A stretch of DNA of 50,765 nt from Anaerolineales bacterium (GTDB lineage: Bacteria; Chloroflexota; Anaerolineae; Anaerolineales; Villigracilaceae), in NCBI GenBank assembly GCA_023382575.1, contig JAHDWC010000007.1, positions 1 to 50,765 of the forward strand. Direction: 5' to 3'. Below the pieces are notes generated by a model. It had not been told where the DNA came from. It saw only the letters and a list, made by a program, of their open reading frames with translations, and made no database searches. This document shows positions 331 through 13,036 of the stretch, in pieces (position 1 is the first letter of the stretch; each line of letters begins with the position of its first letter). The position numbers and the translations under genes are program-made.

Positions 331-1284
331 ATGACCAAATCGAAAATTTATTTGCTGTTTGCCACAACCATGATTGCAACCCTTCTCGTTTCGTCGTGTG
401 GAACGGGCGCGGATACGGAGGCTGCCGTGCAGACCTCCGTCGCAGAGACGGTTGCCGCGCAGACCCCTGTGGTCATCTCAGTTACAAACACGCCAGACCC
501 TTCCCTGCTTCCCACCAAGACCCCCTTTGCAGCACCCACCCTGAACACCCCAGCGATCTCTCCCACAGCGCCGGCTGCACCCAATTCCTCTAAGGCAGAG
601 TGTGCCAAAGCCAGCCTGCAAGATGAATCCGTAGTAGATGGCAAGCTCTTCAAACCCGGCGAACAATTCACCAAGACCTGGTACATCACCAACACCAGCA
701 CCTGCGTCTGGGATACCACCTACAAGATCGTCTTCTGGGATGGTGACATCCTCGGCGGCGGATATGTCTATCAACTGCCGCAGGTGACCGGACCCGGACA
801 AACTGTCCCCATCGCACTCGTCCTGACCGCCCCCACCGCTGATGGAACCTATCGCTCCGAGTGGAAATTACAAACCCCCGATAATATCAACTTCGGCGTG
901 GGTACGTATCAATCGGCTTTTTACACAGAGATCGAAGTCTCATCCGCGGCCACCCCTAACTACACAGTCACATCGGTAAACATGGTTATCGACCGTGAAC
1001 CTGATTATGGCTGCCAGCCTGCCAATATCGACTATTGGGCCATCGTCACCATCACCACCAATGGACCAATAGACATCAAATACCGCATCCTACACTCCGA
1101 CGGCGGACATGGAACTGCACAAACCTTGAGTTTCACCGAAGCCGGCAAGAAAGTCCTCAACGACCACCGCTGGCGAGTGGGGCGCGCCAACTCCCAGAAC
1201 GATAACCGCTGGATGCAGTTTGTCATCCTCGAACCGTTCTACAAAGAATACGCGCAAGTGGGGTTTGAATTCTTCTGTCCATAG
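331..1284 (+). CDS. Lipoprotein with NBR1-like Ig domain
   Basis: 317 residues. A signal peptide ends in a lipobox with the lipidated Cys at position 23 (V-S-S-C), so the mature protein should be anchored on the outer face of the membrane. A Thr/Pro/Ala-rich linker (about 45-88) leads to an NBR1-like Ig domain (about 90-205) with the signature F113-T-K-T-W117-Y-I-T-N...C124-V-W126. A second beta-rich domain (about 210-317) matches the partial gene before it. AAGGAAA precedes the ATG. It is one of a tandem set with the genes at 1383, 2712 and 3489. NBR1-like domains are known from the eukaryotic autophagy receptor NBR1 and from many bacterial surface proteins; the ligand here cannot be read from sequence. 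Confidence 0.85.
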   Translation: MTKSKIYLLFATTMIATLLVSSCGTGADTEAAVQTSVAETVAAQTPVVISVTNTPDPSLLPTKTPFAAPTLNTPAISPTAPAAPNSSKAECAKASLQDESVVDGKLFKPGEQFTKTWYITNTSTCVWDTTYKIVFWDGDILGGGYVYQLPQVTGPGQTVPIALVLTAPTADGTYRSEWKLQTPDNINFGVGTYQSAFYTEIEVSSAATPNYTVTSVNMVIDREPDYGCQPANIDYWAIVTITTNGPIDIKYRILHSDGGHGTAQTLSFTEAGKKVLNDHRWRVGRANSQNDNRWMQFVILEPFYKEYAQVGFEFFCP

Positions 1285-1292
1285 CCTGAAAC

Positions 1293-1324
1293 AAAAGAAG
1301 CCGGGAGCGTCCCGGCTTCTTTTT
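1293..1324 (+). terminator. Intrinsic terminator
   Basis: An 11-bp perfect stem (AGAAGCCGGGA / TCCCGGCTTCT, 1296-1320) with a GCG loop is extended by flanking A and T runs and ends in TTTTT. It lies 11 bases after the stop of the lipoprotein gene, so each lipoprotein may be its own transcription unit. Confidence 0.9.
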
Positions 1325-1382
1325 ATCGGGAACCACTTGCCCCTGCCCTTCGTCTTTAAGACTTGAACGAAACGGAGGAAGC

Positions 1383-2672
1383 ATGAACAAAAAATATTCG
1401 TCTTTTCTTGTCGCAGTCATCGTATTATGGATTGCTCAACTCGCCTGTAACCTGCCATCCGGCGCGGAGACTCCCGACACCTTTGCCACCCTCAATGGAC
1501 TCTACACCACCTCAGCCCAGACGCTCGAAGCGGCGGGAACCCAGTCGGGTTTGACCGCCACTCCGGGCTTGCCACTGCCCACTGTGACGGTGGCAGGTTC
1601 GCCGTCAGCGACGAACGCCCCTTCGACGCAGTTACCCGCTCCACAGTCCAAGTGTGATGCGGCACAATTCCTCGCCGATGTCACCTACCCAGATGGGAGT
1701 CTGCTGCCGCGTAGTACCACTTTTGTCAAAATCTGGCGCATCAAAAATATTGGCACCTGCACCTGGACGACATCGTATGCGCTGGTCTTTTCGGGCGGCG
1801 ATTCGCTGGGCAGTTCGTCTGTAATCGGTATGCCCGGAACGGTACTGCCGGGGCAGTATATTGAGCTGCCAGTGACGTTGACCTCCCCCAATAAGGATGG
1901 CAACTTTACAGGCTATTGGAAGTTGCGCAATGCATCTGGCGTCCCCTTTGGAATCGGCGCACAGGCAGATACTGCCTTTTGGGTGAAAATCCGCGTCACT
2001 GGACCCTCGTTTGTTGCCTATAACTTTGCGGATAATTACTGCAAAGCGGATTGGTCGAACGGAAATTCTGGGTTGCCCTGCCCGGGAAATGACGGCAACT
2101 CCAGCGGATATGCCATTCGGTTGAACAGCCCCAAGATGGAAAACGGTGTGACAGAGGACGAGCCTGGGCTGTTGACCGTCCCGCAGGATAAAAATAACGG
2201 ATTCATCAGCGGCGAGTTCCCAGCTTTTACAGTGCAGGCTGGTGACCGCTTCCGGACGATTGTCAACTGTCAGCATAATGCGACAAAATGTAACGTGGTC
2301 TTCAAACTGGATTACCGAAATAACGGTCAGGTGCGGACGTTCGCCAGTTGGGCAGAGGCATACGAGGGCAAATACTATCCGGTTGACCTTGACCTGAGCA
2401 GCCTTGCCGGGCAGACCTTGAAATTCATCCTCGTGGTCAGTGCCAATGGCGGCAATAACCAAGATTACGCCATCTGGCTCAATCCGCATATTGTGCGTCA
2501 GGGAAATGCGCCCACGGCAACGTTCACGCAGACGCCGACTCATACCTTCACTCCCACGGTCACATTTACGCCAACATTCACGTTAACACCGACAACAACC
2601 TTTACGCCGACCGAAACACCCACACCAACCGCGACGTTTACCGAAACGCCCACCAGCACAGCGACCCCTTAG
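1383..2672 (+). CDS. Lipoprotein, NBR1-like Ig plus Thr/Pro tail
   Basis: 429 residues, ATG with a GGAGG ribosome site nearby. Signal peptide with likely lipidated Cys22 (Q-L-A-C; the -3 residue is unusual for a lipobox). A Thr/Ala/Pro linker precedes the NBR1-like Ig domain (about 85-205; W118-R-I-K-N...C126-T-W128). Residues about 210-375 form a second beta-rich domain with several Cys and a jelly-roll look, similar in style to carbohydrate-binding modules, but I cannot assign a family. The last 50 residues are a run of T-F-T-P-T-type repeats that ends at the stop codon with no domain after it. Such stretches usually link domains, so the free tail is odd. Mature protein probably outside the cell; function unknown. 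Confidence 0.85.
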   Translation: MNKKYSSFLVAVIVLWIAQLACNLPSGAETPDTFATLNGLYTTSAQTLEAAGTQSGLTATPGLPLPTVTVAGSPSATNAPSTQLPAPQSKCDAAQFLADVTYPDGSLLPRSTTFVKIWRIKNIGTCTWTTSYALVFSGGDSLGSSSVIGMPGTVLPGQYIELPVTLTSPNKDGNFTGYWKLRNASGVPFGIGAQADTAFWVKIRVTGPSFVAYNFADNYCKADWSNGNSGLPCPGNDGNSSGYAIRLNSPKMENGVTEDEPGLLTVPQDKNNGFISGEFPAFTVQAGDRFRTIVNCQHNATKCNVVFKLDYRNNGQVRTFASWAEAYEGKYYPVDLDLSSLAGQTLKFILVVSANGGNNQDYAIWLNPHIVRQGNAPTATFTQTPTHTFTPTVTFTPTFTLTPTTTFTPTETPTPTATFTETPTSTATP

Positions 2673-2678
2673 GTGCGT

Positions 2679-2684
2679 TATAAT
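2679..2684 (+). promoter_or_regulatory. Candidate -10 element TATAAT
   Basis: An exact TATAAT lies 7 bases after the stop of the preceding lipoprotein and 27 bases before the ATG at 2712, the same spacing as the -10 candidate at 299-304. No clear -35 element is visible. Confidence 0.4.
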
Positions 2685-2711
2685 AAGTTAACCACTTTTG
2701 GAGGTTCAATC

Positions 2712-3455
2712 ATGAAATTTCGCAAGTCAATCTGGCTGGTAGTGGTGGTCCTCGCTGCCATGCTTCTGAGTTCCTGTAATATCGGAGCTACTCCCGCCCC
2801 CACCCAAGACCTAGGAGCTGTCCAAACGCAGGCGTTTGGGATCGTGCTCACAGAAGCTGCCAATCAACAAACACAGACTGCGGCGGCTATTCCGCCTACG
2901 CCGTTTCCAACCAACACTCTTGCTCCGACCGTTACACTGGCGATTGCCACTTCGGGAACCATCCCGACCTCTGCGCTTGGAGTCACCAATACTCCCTTTG
3001 GTTTCAACACACAACAACCGGGGCTGACCCCGCAATTGCTGGTCACACCAACGGTAGGCACCATCAATACAGTCACCACCTTGAACGGCTGCAATGATGG
3101 CCGGTACGAAGGCGAGACCGGTCCGGCGGATAAGAGTTCCATTGAACGTGGCAAGGAATTTTCCAAGGGCTGGTCGATTTTCAATACTGGCGATTGCACT
3201 TGGGATGAGGGCTACGTTTTCGACTATCTTCAGGATTACTTTCCTGATGTTGGTATTAATCAACTTCAAGGATATGACATCCCCTTGAAAAAGAATACCC
3301 CCGAGGAATACACAAAATCTGGGTACGGACAGACCTTCATTGTAAAGCTCAAAGCGCCCACCACCCCCGGCGAGTATAAGGCGTACTGGAAACTTAAGGA
3401 CGACGCTGGAAATTACTTCGGACCGCTCGTCTATGTATGGATTGTTGTCCCCTAG
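2712..3455 (+). CDS. Lipoprotein with NBR1-like Ig domain
   Basis: 247 residues from the ATG at 2712, chosen because GGAGG lies 7 bases upstream and a proper signal peptide starts there; a GTG at 2673 would only add 13 unrelated residues. The lipobox ends in L-S-S-C with Cys22. A Thr/Pro/Ala linker rich in T-N-T-P (about 25-120) precedes one NBR1-like Ig domain (about 125-247; W154-S-I-F-N-T-G-D-C162-T-W164) that ends in V-W-I-V-V-P. Unlike the first two paralogues it has no domain after the Ig fold. Predicted extracytoplasmic; ligand unknown. Confidence 0.85.
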   Translation: MKFRKSIWLVVVVLAAMLLSSCNIGATPAPTQDLGAVQTQAFGIVLTEAANQQTQTAAAIPPTPFPTNTLAPTVTLAIATSGTIPTSALGVTNTPFGFNTQQPGLTPQLLVTPTVGTINTVTTLNGCNDGRYEGETGPADKSSIERGKEFSKGWSIFNTGDCTWDEGYVFDYLQDYFPDVGINQLQGYDIPLKKNTPEEYTKSGYGQTFIVKLKAPTTPGEYKAYWKLKDDAGNYFGPLVYVWIVVP

Positions 3456-3488
3456 CGCTGGAACAAGACTGCACACTGGAGGAATATC

Positions 3489-4127
3489 ATGAAACCCAAA
3501 TCGTTCTTCAGCCTTCTGGCAGCCGTTTTGATCCTTGCCGCCTGCGCCCCTGCCACGCCGGTTGAACCCACACCAGACGTGAGCGCAGTCCGCACTTCGG
3601 CAGCGAACACGGTAGTGGCAGAATTCACTCTCACGGCGGCAGTCTTCACACCGACCACCCAGCCGCCTACAGAGACGCCTACAGTCGCTGCCTCACCGAC
3701 AGCAACCTCTACCGCCGTGCTGGCACTTGACCCGACGCAAGTGGCGCTTGGTACACCAGCTGCCCTATGTGACGACTACGACTTCGATCTCACCACGCTG
3801 GATGTCACCATCCCCGATGGCACGCCCATGACCCCGGGACAGGAATTCACAAAGACCTGGAAGATCAAGAATACTGGCATCTGTACATGGGACACGGAGT
3901 ACCAGGCCATTTTCTCCTACAGTTCCCCGCCCAACCAGCGGATGAACGGACAGCCCGTCCCGCTCACAGCGTTGGTCGCCCCCGGACAGGAAGTGGAAGT
4001 CTCCGTGCAATTCACGGCTCCCACCATACCCGGTGAATACACTGGCTTCTGGCAAATGGTCAACTCGGCTGGTATCCCCTTCGGCAGAGCTGGCAAACAA
4101 CTTATCGTAAAGATCGTTGTCCAATAA
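3489..4127 (+). CDS. Lipoprotein with NBR1-like Ig domain
   Basis: 212 residues with a textbook lipobox (I-L-A-A-C, Cys19) and a GGAGG-type ribosome site. The linker (about 20-90) is rich in Thr, Pro and Ala, and the NBR1-like Ig domain fills the C-terminal half (F-T-K-T-W124-K-I-K-N-T-G-I-C132-T-W134, ending in I-V-V-Q). It is the smallest and cleanest member of the tandem set. The next gene starts inside its last codons (4117), so the two are probably translated from one mRNA even though their functions look unrelated. Confidence 0.87.
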   Translation: MKPKSFFSLLAAVLILAACAPATPVEPTPDVSAVRTSAANTVVAEFTLTAAVFTPTTQPPTETPTVAASPTATSTAVLALDPTQVALGTPAALCDDYDFDLTTLDVTIPDGTPMTPGQEFTKTWKIKNTGICTWDTEYQAIFSYSSPPNQRMNGQPVPLTALVAPGQEVEVSVQFTAPTIPGEYTGFWQMVNSAGIPFGRAGKQLIVKIVVQ

Positions 4128-5181
4128 TCCGAATCAACTAAAGCAAGCCATAAAAGACAAAGCGCGCCAGCTGGGATTCATCCTGGCTGGCGTTACTTCT
4201 TGTGACTCACCGACGCATTTCAACATCTTCGAAGACTGGCTGGACAAAAACCATCACGGCACAATGGACTATCTCGCCTCAGAACGCAGCCGTCAGCGCC
4301 GCGCCGACCCGCAGCAGATTCTCCCCGAATGTAAATCCATCCTTGTTCTAGCCTTGCCCTATACCCCAGTCGCCCAAAATACGCAACCATCGACGGTCAA
4401 TATCGCCGCCTACGCCCTCGGTGCAGACTATCACGACGTCATCCCACCGCGTCTGCAAGAAATCGTCGAATTCATCGAGGCACAAATCGGTCATCCCATT
4501 CCCAACCGTTATTACACCGACACAGGTCCCATCCTCGAGCGTGAATTGGCTCAACGTGCCGGGCTTGGTTGGGTCGGCAAAAACTCCATGCTCATCAACC
4601 CGCAAGCCGGCTCCACCTTTCTACTTGCGGAGATTCTGCTCGGCATCGAACTCGAACCCGATGACCCCTTTCCCACCGATCATTGCGGCACCTGCACACG
4701 CTGTCTCAACGCCTGCCCCACGCAATGCATCCTCCCCAATCGCACGCTCGACGCCCGCCGCTGCATCTCTTTCCTCACCATCGAAAACAAAGGGGAAATC
4801 CCTGAAGACCTGCGCGAACTGATGGGACGATGGGCTTTTGGATGCGACATCTGCCAGCAAGTCTGCCCGTGGAATCGTTTCGCGCCGCCAGCCGACCCAT
4901 CCCTCCAGCCCGCCATCCCGCTTCCCATCCTGACCGAAGACCTGTTACTGTCATCCTCCGAGTTTAACCAACGCTTCAAGCGCTCGCCCATCCAGCGCGC
5001 CAGACGACGCGGCTATTTGCGAAACCTCGCCGTCACCATAGGAAATACTGGCACAGAAACTGATCTGCTTGTTTTGCAAAAAGCTGCCCAAGACGAAGAA
5101 TTCCTGATTAAAAATCATGTAGAATGGGCAATCCAAAAAATCAAAAAGGAATCTGCTACGGGAAACCCTCCCCCGCAGTGA
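4117..5181 (+). CDS. queG: Epoxyqueuosine reductase QueG
   Basis: 354 residues. QueG reduces epoxyqueuosine to queuosine in the wobble position of tRNAs with GUN anticodons; it is a cytosolic cobalamin and iron-sulfur enzyme. Two ferredoxin-like clusters are visible: C190-x2-C193-x2-C196-x3-C200-P with C204, and C243-x2-C246-x3-C250-P. The N-terminal region with Y-x-x-D-T-G-P-x-L-E-R-E and G-W-x-G-K-N is typical of the family, and the C-terminus looks like a HEAT-type repeat. Length is normal. The start is a TTG at 4117 overlapping the lipoprotein by 11 bases; no ATG is available early enough, so the exact start is uncertain. rdgB follows after 8 bases. Confidence 0.93.
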   Translation: MSNNPNQLKQAIKDKARQLGFILAGVTSCDSPTHFNIFEDWLDKNHHGTMDYLASERSRQRRADPQQILPECKSILVLALPYTPVAQNTQPSTVNIAAYALGADYHDVIPPRLQEIVEFIEAQIGHPIPNRYYTDTGPILERELAQRAGLGWVGKNSMLINPQAGSTFLLAEILLGIELEPDDPFPTDHCGTCTRCLNACPTQCILPNRTLDARRCISFLTIENKGEIPEDLRELMGRWAFGCDICQQVCPWNRFAPPADPSLQPAIPLPILTEDLLLSSSEFNQRFKRSPIQRARRRGYLRNLAVTIGNTGTETDLLVLQKAAQDEEFLIKNHVEWAIQKIKKESATGNPPPQ

Positions 5182-5189
5182 CATAGATT

Positions 5190-5789
5190 ATGAACAAACT
5201 TCTCATCGCCACCAACAACAACGGCAAAGTGCTCGAATTACAGGATCTGCTCAAAGGCAGTGGCATTGAATTCATCACCCCAGCACAGTTCAACCTCGAG
5301 ATGGACGTAGAAGAAGATGGCACGACCTACGCCGAAAATGCCAGCAAGAAAGCCATTGCCTTTGCCAAAGCCAGCGGGTTGATCTCCCTTGCCGATGATT
5401 CCGGGCTGGAAGTGGAGGCACTCGACGGCGCACCCGGACTCTATTCCGCGCGGTATTCTCCCAAGCCCGGCGCTAAAGACGCTGACCGACGCGCTTTCCT
5501 TTTGGAAAATCTCAAAGACAAGCCGCGTCCGTGGAAGGCGCACTTCCATGCAACCATCGCGATTGCCACACCTGAAGGCCAAGTTCAATTGGCAGAAGGA
5601 AATTGCTACGGCGAGATCATCCCAGAGGAACGCGGCACAGGCGGCTTTGGTTATGACCCTATTTTCTTTATGCCAGAGTTGGGCAAGACCATGGCCGAGT
5701 TGGACATGGATGAGAAGAATCGTCTCAGCCACCGCGCGCGCGGCGTGACGAATGCCATGCCTATCTTGAAAACGCTTTTTGGGAAGTAA
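5190..5789 (+). CDS. rdgB: XTP/dITP diphosphohydrolase (RdgB/HAM1)
   Basis: 199 residues, full length for the family. The enzyme hydrolyses non-canonical purine triphosphates (dITP, XTP, ITP) to monophosphate and pyrophosphate, keeping them out of DNA and RNA. Visible signatures: L-I-A-T-N-N-N-G-K near the N-terminus (substrate loop), L-A-D-D-S-G-L with the catalytic Asp pair around residue 70, F-G-Y-D-P-I-F, and S-H-R-A-R-A near the C-terminus. The ATG lies 8 bases after queG; no strong ribosome site is visible, so translational coupling with queG is likely. The gene on the other side is convergent and only 28 bases away, with no obvious terminator. Confidence 0.95.
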   Translation: MNKLLIATNNNGKVLELQDLLKGSGIEFITPAQFNLEMDVEEDGTTYAENASKKAIAFAKASGLISLADDSGLEVEALDGAPGLYSARYSPKPGAKDADRRAFLLENLKDKPRPWKAHFHATIAIATPEGQVQLAEGNCYGEIIPEERGTGGFGYDPIFFMPELGKTMAELDMDEKNRLSHRARGVTNAMPILKTLFGK

Positions 5790-6589: not shown

Positions 6590-8347
6590 TCATCTCCTGC
6601 GACGGGCATGATGCAACCGGTCAGCGGCTTCTTCGGTCAGCGGGATGTAGACTTGAACCTTGGTGCCTTTACCCGGTTTTGAGTCGATCTGCAAAAGTCC
6701 GTTGACCAACTCGGAGCGTTCGCGCAAATTGACCATACCCAAACTGCTGCTCGAGCGTTTGTCGTAGGCTTCCGACACGGCTTTGACGTCGAAACCAAGT
6801 CCATTGTCCGCGATCTCCAGCAGGAGGACACCCAGCTCAAATTGCTGCAGGCGCACAAAAATGGATTCGGCGGCTGCATGTTTACGGGCGTTATTCACCG
6901 CTTCATCGATGATGTAGAAGATAACGCCTTGTTTGCCCATTTCCAATTGTTGAGTCGCATTTTCGTCGATATCCACGACCACCTTCTGCGAGAAGGTCTC
7001 CATCATTTTATCTGCCATGGCTTGGATGGCAGCTTTCAACCCTTGCGATTCAAGGATGAGCGGACGCAAGGTAAAGAGCATGTGACGGATCTCTTTCGTC
7101 GTGCGATGCGCCAATTCCTCGAGTTTGACGATCTCATCCGTGGCCGCTTTGACATCTTTCGACAACATGCGTCTGGTGATGTTCAATCGCATCGCCATCG
7201 CGGCGACAGATTGAGTGGGACCATCGTGCAAGTCGCGTGCCAGTTTTTTACGGGCTTCTTCGTACACTTCCGCCATGCGTTCTTTTTCTTCCACCAGATC
7301 CTGATAGAGGCGTGCGTTTTGGATCGCAATGATGGATTGCCGTCCGATGATATCCAACAACTTGATACGTTCGGATGTGAAATAGTTAGGCTCGGGATGT
7401 GCAAACAACAAAATACCGTACACGTTGAATCCGCTGCGCAAAGGGAAACAATAACCGCTGGTACAACTCCGCAAAGCAATGACACGTCCCAATTCGGGGT
7501 CGTAGCCAATATCTTTTAGCAAGACCGGCTCGCCATCATCCAAAGCGCGTTTGAGGACGCCTTCCGCCCCATCAAAGGTGACACGCATATCGGCGCTGGT
7601 GAAGCGTCGTGCCGAGCCGATGCGTAATTTTCCGCCGTGGAACAACATCACCACACCCACCAGCGGATCACTCGTGGTCGATTCTTCCACCTCGGGATTC
7701 AGCGCCGCCGCACTCATGTCGAGAGCGGAATCCAGGACCCGTTTGTAGCTCAATGTGGAAGACAGCGTGGATGTCAGTTCATAAATGGCACGCATGCGTT
7801 CGTTTTGAATGGCGCGTTTCTTTTCTTCGGCATCGATCCACAAGGCGCGATTCTTGCGCATGTGCGCCATCAGGCTACGCCCCAAATAGCCGAAGATCAC
7901 CCCAAGCCCGATCAAGATGGATGCGATCACCACAGTCAGAGAAAAGTTTTCCTCAAGCTGCGATCCAGAATAAAAGACAAGTACGGCAAATAGAATGGAT
8001 GAAAACAATGCCCCTGCAAGTTCAAAATAGATCGAGCTGGTCAGGATGGGCATCAACCCCGCCCAGAATGCCGGTCCGCGGACGCCGCCCTGCCCCCAGA
8101 AAAACGCTCCCGCCAGAATCAGATCCACTACGACATTGAGGCGGCGATGATAAGTGGTGCGCAGGTTCAACCCCGCCATGGCGGTCATGCCCAAATTCCA
8201 GGCGATCATCAATCCCAACGGCCACGTCAGAGCCACCTCCAGCCGTTGACTCAGCCCAAGTGAAATAAATAAACCCACCACCATGATCCACCGGAGTGAA
8301 ATGGCGAACCAGTCTGCCATGTAGGGGGTTTCAAATCGTTTCATCAT
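6590..8347 (-). CDS. Membrane sensor histidine kinase, NarL class
   Basis: 585 residues. Order: about six hydrophobic membrane segments (about 13-160), a GAF-like region (about 195-350), a short coiled coil, then a HisKA_3 dimerisation domain with the phosphoacceptor in A-R-D-L-H374-D-G-P-T-Q-S, and a HATPase domain with N-box D-E-A-V-N-N-A-R-K-H (N486 region), D-N-G-L-G-F-D and L-G-M-V-N-L-R-E-R. All catalytic elements look intact. Such kinases normally pair with a LuxR-type response regulator, but none is in the window, so this one is an orphan. The signal is unknown; GAF domains bind small molecules or pigments. Two consecutive ATGs (8347, 8344) compete as start. Confidence 0.92.
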   Translation of the reverse strand: MMKRFETPYMADWFAISLRWIMVVGLFISLGLSQRLEVALTWPLGLMIAWNLGMTAMAGLNLRTTYHRRLNVVVDLILAGAFFWGQGGVRGPAFWAGLMPILTSSIYFELAGALFSSILFAVLVFYSGSQLEENFSLTVVIASILIGLGVIFGYLGRSLMAHMRKNRALWIDAEEKKRAIQNERMRAIYELTSTLSSTLSYKRVLDSALDMSAAALNPEVEESTTSDPLVGVVMLFHGGKLRIGSARRFTSADMRVTFDGAEGVLKRALDDGEPVLLKDIGYDPELGRVIALRSCTSGYCFPLRSGFNVYGILLFAHPEPNYFTSERIKLLDIIGRQSIIAIQNARLYQDLVEEKERMAEVYEEARKKLARDLHDGPTQSVAAMAMRLNITRRMLSKDVKAATDEIVKLEELAHRTTKEIRHMLFTLRPLILESQGLKAAIQAMADKMMETFSQKVVVDIDENATQQLEMGKQGVIFYIIDEAVNNARKHAAAESIFVRLQQFELGVLLLEIADNGLGFDVKAVSEAYDKRSSSSLGMVNLRERSELVNGLLQIDSKPGKGTKVQVYIPLTEEAADRLHHARRRR

Positions 8348-8357
8348 TGTCTGTCAC

Positions 8358-8363
8358 ATCATA
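8358..8363 (-). promoter_or_regulatory. Candidate -10 (TATGAT) of the kinase gene
   Basis: On the - strand TATGAT is followed by 10 bases and the ATG at 8347, with no ribosome site between. This fits a very short or absent 5' leader, as at several other starts in this window. Confidence 0.35.
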
Positions 8364-8417
8364 ACGAAAAAAGAGGATAGCGACAACTTCTTCGACATTA
8401 CAGTCAAATTACACCTG

Positions 8418-9146
8418 TCACTTTTCGTACCCCATGCGTTCCAAATACCGGCTTAATTTCTCTGTCAGGATCGCTTTTTGCCCATCCGTATAGGATTCGC
8501 GGAATCTGCCGATCTTGCCCTTGTAGAAATGGAGTCCCTGCTGACTGTCGTTCGCGCCGGGGCGGTATCGCTCGATCACTGCGCGGACCTCGGGCTTGGT
8601 GCTGTCCAGTTTAAGGTAATTTACCAGTTTGGCTGATTCGACATCATAGTTTGTGAGCAGGTCTTCGTAGCGGGCGATGAGCACATTCTTTTCGCCCATC
8701 CAACGCTCCCAGATGTGGACATATTCCAAAATGAAATCCAGACTCTTCTCAAAGTCTGAAAGATGCGAAAAAGCATTGGGACGTCCCTTGGCAAGCGCGC
8801 GCTGACCATAGTCAAAGGCGGAGAGCATCGCATCACGCGGGTCACGATAGATGTAGGTGATACGCAACAAGCCGAAATTAGTCAACAGGCGCGAGGTGCT
8901 TGTCGGCCCGGCGTGAGCTTTGATGACAAACGTATTCCCCATCAACGCAGGCAGGGTCACCATCGCCAACCGGCGCGGAGACAGGACACCGATATTGCAA
9001 TTCACTTCGGTGAGTATTTTTTGCAGTCGATATTTTTCACGAATGTCACGCGCATCGGCACAGCCCGTGGTTTTCATCAGGTCGTGGATGAGGTTATAGT
9101 GCCAGCCCGACCCGGCGCGCGGCATCCCAACAGAGAGAACGATCAT
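8418..9146 (-). CDS. Sulfotransferase
   Basis: 242 residues. The PAPS 5'-phosphosulfate loop G7-M-P-R-A-G-S-G-W-H-Y-N and the 3'-phosphate motif Y100-R-D-P-R-D105 are present, with K76-A-H-A-G-P between them, so this should move sulfate from PAPS to an acceptor hydroxyl. It is shorter than the other four sulfotransferases and more divergent, but ends in the same G-Y-E-K style. Its ATG overlaps the stop of the Wzy-like gene by four bases (ATGA), so the sulfotransferase is co-translated with polymer assembly functions. Acceptor unknown; a sugar of the polysaccharide made here is the natural candidate. Confidence 0.85.
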   Translation of the reverse strand: MIVLSVGMPRAGSGWHYNLIHDLMKTTGCADARDIREKYRLQKILTEVNCNIGVLSPRRLAMVTLPALMGNTFVIKAHAGPTSTSRLLTNFGLLRITYIYRDPRDAMLSAFDYGQRALAKGRPNAFSHLSDFEKSLDFILEYVHIWERWMGEKNVLIARYEDLLTNYDVESAKLVNYLKLDSTKPEVRAVIERYRPGANDSQQGLHFYKGKIGRFRESYTDGQKAILTEKLSRYLERMGYEK

Positions 9147-11258: not shown

Positions 11259-12068
11259 TTATTTCTTTATCCGCCATTTCCACAGCGGACCAATAATCTT
11301 CCTTAAGTAATATTTTGCCACGATTGGCGCAAAAAAACTTCCACCATCGCGATAATGAACACGCAGCATTTCTTTCCAGCCACGCTCATCATTGACATTG
11401 GTTTTGCTCGAAGTATGAATCCGAAAATTTGCCCACGTTTTACCGGGCAGATATTTGATAGGCGCATATTTGGCGATCCGCACCCACAGGTCATAGTCCA
11501 TCGCAAAATAAAAAGATGGATCAAGCGGTCCGAGTTCCTTCCAATATTTTGCGCGAAAGAACATCGTCTGCTGTGGGATGTGGACATACCCGCTTCGCAA
11601 TTTCTGATAATCCGTCTGACGCGAAGCGAACTCGCCAATCACCCGCCCCTGCTCGTCGATGAAATCACAATCCGCGTACACCATCGCCACATCAGGATTT
11701 TCCATCAGGAACAGAACTGCTTCTCCCACAGCTTTGGGATGATAGGTATCATCCGAGTTCAACCATGCAAGGATGTCACCATTGGCGCGCGCAAAGCCCT
11801 TATTGATCGCATCGGTCTGACCCTTGTCCGATTCGCTGACCCACGAGTGGATACGATGCCGATAGTTCCCCGACGACAAACTGTCTGACGCTAAAGTATA
11901 TTTCTTGATAATGTCCACGCTGCCATCGGTCGAACCACCGTCGATAACGATGTATTCGATGTTGGGGTAATCCTGTCGCAGCACAGATTGGATCGTCGCC
12001 TCGAGATACTCAGCCTGATTGAACGATGGCGTGATAATGGAAACAAGGGGCAAGGCGGGCGGCTTCAT
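11259..12068 (-). CDS. Glycosyltransferase family 2
   Basis: 269 residues, GT-A fold. The N-terminal L-V-S-I-I-T-P-S-F-N-Q, D-G-G-S-T-D-G-S, and the metal-binding region A-W-L-N-S-D-D are all intact. It transfers a sugar from a nucleotide donor to a lipid-linked acceptor in the cytoplasm. It is strongly similar over the first 150 residues to the GT2 at 17300-18229, so the two are paralogues. No membrane segment is evident. Donor and acceptor are unknown. Confidence 0.92.
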   Translation of the reverse strand: MKPPALPLVSIITPSFNQAEYLEATIQSVLRQDYPNIEYIVIDGGSTDGSVDIIKKYTLASDSLSSGNYRHRIHSWVSESDKGQTDAINKGFARANGDILAWLNSDDTYHPKAVGEAVLFLMENPDVAMVYADCDFIDEQGRVIGEFASRQTDYQKLRSGYVHIPQQTMFFRAKYWKELGPLDPSFYFAMDYDLWVRIAKYAPIKYLPGKTWANFRIHTSSKTNVNDERGWKEMLRVHYRDGGSFFAPIVAKYYLRKIIGPLWKWRIKK

Positions 12069-12094
12069 AAAGTTTGCTCAATCGTGAGCAGAAG

Positions 12095-13036
12095 TTACTT
12101 CCATTCTTCATCCGAATAAAATGACTCAGACACGCCTTCCGTCAACTTGCGGACGCGGGAAATCTCTTCAGGAGCGAGGATTTTCTTCCAGTTATCAAGG
12201 TTGGCGCGGCTGTCAAGTTTGACAGAATGGGTCTTGTTCTTTGCCAGTTTAGTAGGATTCTCGGAACTGCTCGAGTTTTGGATAATGTCCTTGACGTGCT
12301 CAGTAAAACTCAAGCCTAGGTTTTTATACAAAGCCCGATACCCGCCCATGGGGTCAAGGGAAAGGTCTTCGTGGCGCACCACCTGAAATTGCGGAAAAGA
12401 CTCCTTCGTCGAATGAACGAAGCGATAGATGATCTTCCACAGCAACGCCGCCTGCCCAATGATGTCATCTTTCGGCATGGACTCCATTGCAACGCGGTCA
12501 GCTTCCAAATGATCGCGCATGAAAAGCGGCTGGTTTAGGAAATTATCAAAATCGAAATTCCAACCAAGGCGTTTAAGGCTGCCGACAAATCCGCCGGGGT
12601 GTCGGGCTGTGATAACAACTTGGCAATTGAGTCTCTTTGCAAACCAGGGTGTGGAGAAAACTGCAAATGGGTCTTTGATTAGCGCACGTTGACCATGCAT
12701 GCTGCCATTGAAAAAAATACGGAAGTCACGCCCCATACGCAAAAAGTCTTTGACCGAGCGAAGCGATTTGATCTCCAACAGGAGATGATATTGAAAGTCC
12801 AATAATTCATGAAAAGCTGGCAGATATTCTGCTTCGTTCTCTTCGGTGATGTAGGTGTACCAATGTTTGACGGGCACGCGATACACGCCGGGGCGATGAA
12901 GTACATTGAGCGGCTCACTGATATAGGCAGTATCTGCGTCAGCAGCAAGCATTCTGCCAACCCAGGTGGTGCCACTACGGTGTGAACCAGTGACGAGAAT
13001 GGGGGTTAGTTCATTCGCTGAAGTAATAGAGGACAT
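12095..13036 (-). CDS. Sulfotransferase
   Basis: 313 residues. The PAPS loop is I-L-V-T-G-S-H-R-S-G-T-T-W (13-25), and A-R-H-P-G-G in the middle takes the place of the R-D-P-R-D motif. Ends in F-Y-S-D-E-E-W. It is a different subfamily from the FPKSGTH-type enzymes at 29.3 and 34.4 kb. The ATG is preceded by GAAGAAG and lies 26 bases inside the end of the upstream membrane protein gene, so they overlap in different frames. Expected to sulfate a glycan; acceptor unknown. Confidence 0.83.
   Translation of the reverse strand: MSSITSANELTPILVTGSHRSGTTWVGRMLAADADTAYISEPLNVLHRPGVYRVPVKHWYTYITEENEAEYLPAFHELLDFQYHLLLEIKSLRSVKDFLRMGRDFRIFFNGSMHGQRALIKDPFAVFSTPWFAKRLNCQVVITARHPGGFVGSLKRLGWNFDFDNFLNQPLFMRDHLEADRVAMESMPKDDIIGQAALLWKIIYRFVHSTKESFPQFQVVRHEDLSLDPMGGYRALYKNLGLSFTEHVKDIIQNSSSSENPTKLAKNKTHSVKLDSRANLDNWKKILAPEEISRVRKLTEGVSESFYSDEEWK

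Follow-up and report, generated by a model that had tools for sequence, protein, structure and literature searches.

A conserved block of tandem FW-domain lipoprotein genes in Anaerolineales and the predicted role of its products as stalked binding proteins

What does the FW domain of NBR1 and ILRUN do when it is carried by bacterial lipoproteins? The question is raised by a tandem gene array at one end of a 50,765-nucleotide stretch of DNA (the window) from an Anaerolineales bacterium of the Villigracilaceae (contig JAHDWC010000007.1, here C7, of assembly GCA_023382575.1). The window is one whole contig of an assembly of 4.37 Mb in 346 contigs. An earlier note on this DNA had described four complete lipoproteins and one partial one in a row, sharing an NBR1-like immunoglobulin (Ig) domain, and had regarded them as a duplicating display family. 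We found four complete lipoprotein open reading frames (ORFs) on the + strand at 331–4127, which belong to classes B, C, D and E (P0001–P0004); class A is represented by the 3′ part of a gene only. We lean towards reading the products as lipid-anchored, stalked envelope proteins with a predicted protein-binding FW head and, in some of them, a second binding domain. The array itself is an old, stable block.

The class B gene (331..1284, +) encodes P0001 (317 aa), which consists of lipobox VSSC, a linker, the FW domain and a C-terminal beta domain. P0002, the class C product (1383..2672, +; 429 aa), has lipobox QLAC, a linker, the FW domain, a beta sandwich resembling carbohydrate-binding modules (CBMs) and MAM domains, and a Thr/Pro tail. 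In the class D protein P0003 (2712..3455, +; 247 aa from ATG 2712; lipobox LSSC) and the class E protein P0004 (3489..4127, +; 212 aa; lipobox LAAC), the linker is followed by a terminal FW domain. For P0003, a start at ATG 2712 suits the lipobox better than one at GTG 2673, which is the listed start. The residues after the FW domain number 114 in P0001, 224 in P0002 (tail included) and 1 each in P0003 and P0004. Both the row of four lipoproteins, each with a lipobox-like motif, a Thr/Pro/Ser-rich linker and an FW match, and the differences in what follows the shared domain were thereby confirmed.

All four complete proteins exceeded the 28-bit cut-off of PF16158, the FW domain of NBR1/ILRUN: P0001 with 69.8 bits (aa 101–189), P0002 with 79.0 bits (aa 101–205), P0003 with 57.3 bits (aa 140–246) and P0004 with 84.9 bits (aa 107–211). 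Because every one of them lies above this cut-off, the match is not a chance one. The domains thus neither scored poorly nor fell into another Ig family, and the NBR1-like assignment of the earlier note stood up to the domain search. Chance similarity and membership of a different Ig family were ruled out by the PF16158 scores; a PKD match in P0004 (17.1 bits) remained below its own cut-off, and a scan with NCBIfam gave nothing over cut-off. PF16158 was the only family over cut-off in the four proteins and the Pfam scan gave no PB1 or ZZ match, so orthology to NBR1 is not claimed.

Using phmmer, P0001, P0002 and P0004 matched human NBR1 (4ole) and human ILRUN (6vhi) with E values of 1.7e-14 to 9.5e-7 (P0004 against the NBR1 FW domain 4ole: 4.5e-12). 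With fungal Nbr1 (7vqo), the same three full-length proteins gave 7.7e-4, 0.035 and 0.093. Profiles of two alignments, A1 and A2, retrieved FW proteins when run against the PDB sequences; DrrA rows for the A1 profile (E 0.46–1.8, profile positions 25–114) were taken as chance. The AlphaFold model of P0001 had a mean predicted local distance difference test score (pLDDT) of 83.7, that of P0002 one of 66.3. The FW part of the P0001 model matched 6vhi, 4ole and 7vqo with Z-scores of 15.8, 15.4 and 14.1, the next row being 9.6. For P0002 the corresponding values were 13.7 (6vhi), 13.4 (7vqo) and 11.8 (4ole), a modest margin over the next row at 10.8. The superpositions of both models on the three structures had root-mean-square deviations (rmsd) of 1.5–2.5 Å. 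RbmA, transglutaminase and similar rows for P0001 either had an rmsd of ~8–13 Å over both domains or were ordinary sandwich matches, and we do not consider them kin. Among 139 FW domains, tryptophan was conserved at the positions of W118 (131), W128 (139) and W179 (129; P0002 numbering). The fourth position, W200, is W in 24/24 class C domains, Y in 22/23 of class A and 22/24 of class B, and mixed in classes D and E.

The lipoprotein anatomy extends to the relatives described below. A permissive lipobox pattern, widened to admit Q at −3, matched 118 of the 121 array proteins examined, with 21/23 in class A, 23/23 in B, 24/24 in C, 24/25 in D and 26/26 in E; this count omits a class B protein cut at its 5′ end (locus L037). 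Q at −3 departs from the textbook lipobox. It occurs in all 24 intact class C proteins, including the QLAC of the window, and these pass only with Q allowed. The linkers of the array proteins are 59–122 residues long, with 32–52% Thr, Pro and Ser.

A pair of cysteines (Cys91 and Cys126 of P0002) is present in 136/139 FW domains, the exceptions being one at L073 (7113) and two at L085. We infer that the pair forms a disulfide in P0002, which would lock the Cys-x-Trp loop onto the beginning of strand 1. The position of Cys126 is occupied by E in ILRUN and by V in both NBR1 and the Chaetomium protein CtNbr1; that of Cys91 is covered only in ILRUN, where it is V. Neither cysteine occurs in the FW regions of Gordonia, Rhodococcus and Nonomuraea proteins, and a Leptolinea lipoprotein has both. 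The pair is a structural marker that separates nearly all FW domains examined here from the eukaryotic and XRE-type ones that we compared. At L085 (contig C98, 2707–3983, −), two divergent FW proteins lie next to each other, each without one or both cysteines, and one of them had a CARDB match below its cut-off.

What follows the FW domain differs between and within the classes. The class B C-terminal domain is shared by 15/23 class A proteins and by the partial gene of the window, and the remaining 8/23 class A proteins carry an unrelated C-terminal domain of 167–179 aa. The class C C-terminal domain also occurs in four proteins of other families and in a protein of the same genome with two FW domains. 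In the weak model of P0002, the fold of this domain resembles chains of CBM51, MAM, CBM22, CBM29, CBM27 and CBM4 (Z 8.9–10.8, rmsd 3–5 Å). The C-terminal domains of the window proteins and of two long class A proteins gave no Pfam match over cut-off. The carbohydrate-binding-like domain that the earlier note had proposed for P0002 is thus weakly supported: the fold agrees at Z ~9–10.8, but no Pfam family passed its cut-off and the mean pLDDT of the model is 66.

To compare the array across genomes, we used 34 loci with FW hits that remained after removal of six duplicates (L060, L061, L066, L067, L069 and L071). Thirty of these, from 29 relatives and the window, contain array genes; four are from other families. 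Genes were assigned to classes B–E according to the window protein that they matched best, and class A comprises the remaining upstream gene, so that its place is partly definitional. The order A-B-C-D-E was unchanged in all 30 array loci. It was intact in 15 of them, three (L040, L041 and L045) had the same order with broken genes, and 12 had fewer genes. For five of these 12, a contig end does not account for the missing genes: D-E is absent after A-B-C in L062 and L065, B is missing from L055, L057 is reduced to B, D and E, and L056 to D and E. The broken or frame-split genes of L040, L041 and L045 belong to class B, C or D, and either assembly errors or decay may account for them.

The FW tree united the 24 domains of class B, the 24 of class C, the 25 of class D and the 26 of class E in one clade per class, each with a Shimodaira–Hasegawa-like approximate likelihood ratio test (SH-aLRT) support of 99. 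This tree of 139 rows was made by a quick method from few columns, with eight broken or cut fragments omitted, and has long branches, including the B clade meeting long outgroup rows. A FastTree run that included some fragments gave clean clades for B and E; D was clean except for its own broken L045 copy, and C was joined by two broken C copies with a support of 0.52. Orthologues cluster by array position and not by genome. Since each of these classes is a single clade across genomes, the paralogues diverged before these genomes did. We also estimated the ratio of non-synonymous to synonymous substitution rates (dN/dS) by the Nei–Gojobori method for the window against L037, L038 and L039; most dS values exceeded 1, so the ratios are rough. 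Against L037 and L038, dN/dS was 0.136 and 0.218 for class B, 0.067 and 0.095 for C, not computable and 0.194 for D, and 0.059 and 0.104 for E. The adjacent genes queG (0.170 and 0.181) and rdgB (0.093 and 0.050) gave similar values. Against L039, synonymous sites were saturated except in queG (dN/dS 0.109). Selection on the array genes is purifying (dN/dS 0.06–0.22), like that on queG and rdgB.

These results bear directly on the suggestion of a display family that is still duplicating or recombining. Five tandem paralogues are what such a family would look like, and class A comes with two unrelated C-terminal domains, one as in B (15 loci) and the other of ~167–179 aa (8 loci). Moreover, genomes across the order have 1–24 FW places each and some loci lack B, C or D-E. 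However, each of the classes B–E is a single clade (SH-aLRT 99), the order is constant in 30 loci, and the window proteins score only 54–96 bits against one another's classes, compared with 200–870 bits against their own. The single-clade classes, fixed order and purifying selection refute a recent duplication of the array, and we regard ongoing duplication or recombination as highly improbable. We conclude that the array is an old stable block and not a duplicating family; on this point the earlier note was mistaken.

What the block does can be approached through its architecture. The five products would be extracytoplasmic lipoproteins with a lipid-anchored cysteine, a Thr/Pro/Ser-rich stalk of ~60–120 residues and an FW head; only A, B and C add a second domain. 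Once a product has been exported and lipidated, its stalk would raise the head off the membrane. The head is a putative protein- or peptide-binding module, most likely in A and C because these retain the pocket positions of fungal Nbr1, and the C-terminal domains may supply a second grip, on a protein or a glycan. Since peptidoglycan-binding or CAP domains occur on FW proteins elsewhere in this genome, the FW head looks like a shared adaptor of an envelope toolkit.

The pocket comparison relies on the Chaetomium Nbr1 FW domain bound to Ams1 (7vqo). According to the available part of PMC9233695, alanine at F651, D654, D658 or W763 of CtNbr1 each abolishes Ams1 binding, the N-terminal di-glycine of Ams1 sits in the pocket, and L762 and W672 line its floor. 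Residues F651, D654, D658, W672, L762 and W763, as named there, correspond to F96, D99, D104, W118, F199 and W200 of P0002, and the first four positions are backed by HMMER alignments to 7vqo. In class C (n=24) the six positions are F 24, D 24, D 24, W 24, F 22 (I 1, V 1) and W 24; in class A (n=23) they are F 23, D 23, D 23, W 23, F 23 and Y 22 (F 1). The strand-1 stretch (A1 residues 12–27) is the best conserved section of class C: it was invariant at 13/16 positions compared with 29/99 at residues 28–126, a count on 16 sequences for which the stretch was picked after the list had been seen. The conservation of pocket and strand 1 fits ligand binding without proving it.

Several observations weigh against the FW head as a binding module. 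To place L762 and W763, we relied on MAFFT and on where the structural-match ranges end, with the last strand assumed to be gapless. Even in A and C, Phe replaces L762, and in A, Tyr replaces W763. In class B, no residue aligns with F651, and the D654 position has S (15/24) or D (9/24); class D has E at D654 (24/25), W or F (7) at W672 and V at L762; in class E, only 12/26 proteins are aromatic at the W763 position. Conservation may also be partly structural, since the core may require W672 and a turn may require D658. Confidence in the P0002 model is low: its mean pLDDT is 66, and residues 1–16 and 18–26, which hold strand 1, fall below 50. The association of the cysteine pair with envelope proteins is likewise imperfect. 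The Nonomuraea FW region follows what by eye is a membrane-like segment, yet does not have the cysteine pair, and one or both cysteines are also missing from three other FW domains, the two at L085 and one at L073.

The chief rival to a binding head is that the FW domains are rigid Ig-like spacers holding out the C-terminal domains, which would do the binding themselves. Ig-like sandwiches are common spacers; A, B and C do carry a second domain past the FW domain, and the PG-binding or CAP domains of other FW proteins in the genome would fit the same role. The class D and E proteins, however, end with the FW domain (1–5 aa after it) and leave nothing to hold out, few classes are as constrained as E (dN/dS 0.059 and 0.104), and the pocket positions are kept in A and C. 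We consider a pure spacer unlikely, though it deserves more weight than the other alternatives. Alternatively, the lipoproteins might attach to polysaccharide, with the CBM-like second domain of class C binding the glycans. The alignment of this domain of P0002 with CBM51, CBM22, CBM29, CBM27 and CBM4 (Z 8.9–10.8, rmsd 3–5 Å) speaks for this idea, but MAM domains (meprin, neuropilin-1) score equally, model confidence is low and no Pfam CBM match reached its cut-off. A shared fold shows no function, and D and E would be left unexplained, so that we find glycan attachment doubtful. Within the favoured reading of a protein-binding FW head, the A and C heads might bind the N-termini of exported proteins cut by signal peptidase, by analogy with the fungal Nbr1 FW domain on the di-glycine of Ams1. 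We put this forward as a speculation with little claim to be right. If it were true, N-terminal recognition by the FW family would predate autophagy and would be done extracellularly by disulfide-locked versions.

FW domains are widespread in this order. All 151 genomes sampled across it have PF16158 over cut-off, at 1–24 places per genome; 14 well-known genomes scanned as controls gave no such match. In a sample of the phylum, 49/151 genomes had a match at E 0.001, 39 of them over cut-off; 13 of the 49 are in this order, leaving 36/138 outside it. The source genome has PF16158 at 16 places. The twelve outside the window form eleven proteins, nine of which have no further family over cut-off. 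The FW protein at L077 (C163, 2528–3580, −) carries peptidoglycan-binding domains (PG_binding_1, 120 bits), and that at L083 (C192, 2770–3780, −) a CAP domain (73 bits). The two-FW protein mentioned above (L078; C169, 3576–5738) has 720 aa with a class C-like second domain, and similar ORFs of ~700 aa occur in many genomes of the genus.

The array proteins resemble the FW domain of NBR1/ILRUN (PF16158, N_BRCA1_IG) in family, fold (as modelled for B and C) and the tryptophans at W118, W128, W179 and W200 (class C). They differ from it in the lipobox motif, the absence of a PB1 or ZZ match, the cysteine pair, and the last tryptophan, which is mostly Tyr in A and B. Compared with the Chaetomium Nbr1 FW domain (7vqo; PMC9233695, available part), classes A and C have like pocket residues. 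The array has no Ams1 or autophagy connected with it, and there is one extra residue in the loop between strands 1 and 2. Bacterial XRE-FW proteins (PMC3357945, available part), represented by genes on Gordonia and Rhodococcus plasmids (L090 and L091), belong to the same family (PF16158 55.5 and 51.2 bits). These have a helix-turn-helix (PF13560 over cut-off) and no cysteine pair, whereas the array proteins have lipobox, stalk and cysteine pair. In both plasmids, the helix-turn-helix FW gene is divergent from a DUF2690 gene. FW matches were present in 5 of 72,556 plasmid records; concerning a phage origin, 50,697 phage records gave none at E 0.01.

In the available part of their paper, Marchbank et al. 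2012 (PMC3357945) report FW domains in Chloroflexi and other bacteria, in varied architectures and mostly near the C-terminus, and the accessible text of a 2022 review (PMC9582228) mentions bacterial proteins with FW domains. The statement of the earlier note that such domains are poorly known in bacteria is therefore fair as regards function, but their presence in bacteria, including Chloroflexi, was described in 2012. Narrow literature searches found no description of these lipoproteins, although one may exist. What seems to be new is the fixed five-gene block, the cysteine pair, an FW domain in every sampled genome of the order, and the finding that the paralogues differ in the state of their pocket. 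The function of the NBR1 FW domain itself is thinly known, and no bacterial member with a tested role was found in the available portions of PMC3357945, PMC9233695 and PMC9582228. An order with FW domains in every sampled genome, in which some paralogues keep the pocket and others have it altered, is a natural test set (A and C versus E), and the array offers a way to ask what the FW domain did before autophagy existed.

The fifth gene of the block is cut by the contig end. Its 3′ part (P0005; 3..242, +) encodes a C-terminal domain, and the Pfam scan gave no FW match in this piece (3–239). The claim that five genes share the Ig domain thus held for the four complete ones only. The piece was 48–73% identical over 79–82 aa to the C-terminal part of the gene preceding B in 13 loci, and it clusters with the C-terminal domains of classes A and B. 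On contig C134 of the same assembly, a class A-type, FW-bearing ORF (11514–12185) runs off the contig end; in the tree it groups with the 23 class A rows with weak support (SH-aLRT 71). The ends of C134 and of the window have no exact overlap of at least 15 bases. The two pieces are likely to be halves of one gene.

Between the class B and class C genes, a possible but weak intrinsic terminator lies at 1288..1324 (+; listed at 1303–1320); the scan of the window gave 7 sites, compared with 7.5 expected by chance. Downstream of the array lie queG (epoxyqueuosine reductase; 4117..5181, +; PF08331 and PF13484 over cut-off), whose ORF overlaps the end of class E, and a gene for an rdgB/Ham1-like pyrophosphatase (5190..5789, +; PF01725, 197 bits). 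A GAF/HisKA_3 histidine kinase and a sulfotransferase-domain protein follow on the − strand (within 6593–9146). These neighbours are conserved beside the array: among the 26 loci with class E, queG adjoins E in 22 (window included), rdgB is present in 21, the histidine kinase in 19 and the sulfotransferase-domain protein in 17. In the four E loci without queG, three (L041, L047 and L049) have <700 bases after E, and L053 has ~6 kb without a queG match. As a tRNA-modification enzyme, QueG gives no functional clue to the array.

A queG-like match was present in 50/61 genomes of the order, and we examined the neighbourhood of the best 30 queG loci. In 10 of these (window included), from six families (f1, f6, f7, f9, f13 and f14), an FW ORF lies directly upstream of queG on the same strand. 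Among the other 20 loci, three have short upstream DNA (L095 ~100, L112 ~660 and L121 ~920 bases), and others, such as that of a genome of the same genus (G041) on a complete contig, truly have no FW ORF directly upstream of queG. In three f7 genomes the gene before queG is class C-like in both domains, with 30–34% identity in the C-terminal part, and in f6, f9, f13 and f14 it encodes another FW protein. From these gene neighbourhoods we infer that a single FW gene beside queG may have been there first and later expanded into the block of five.

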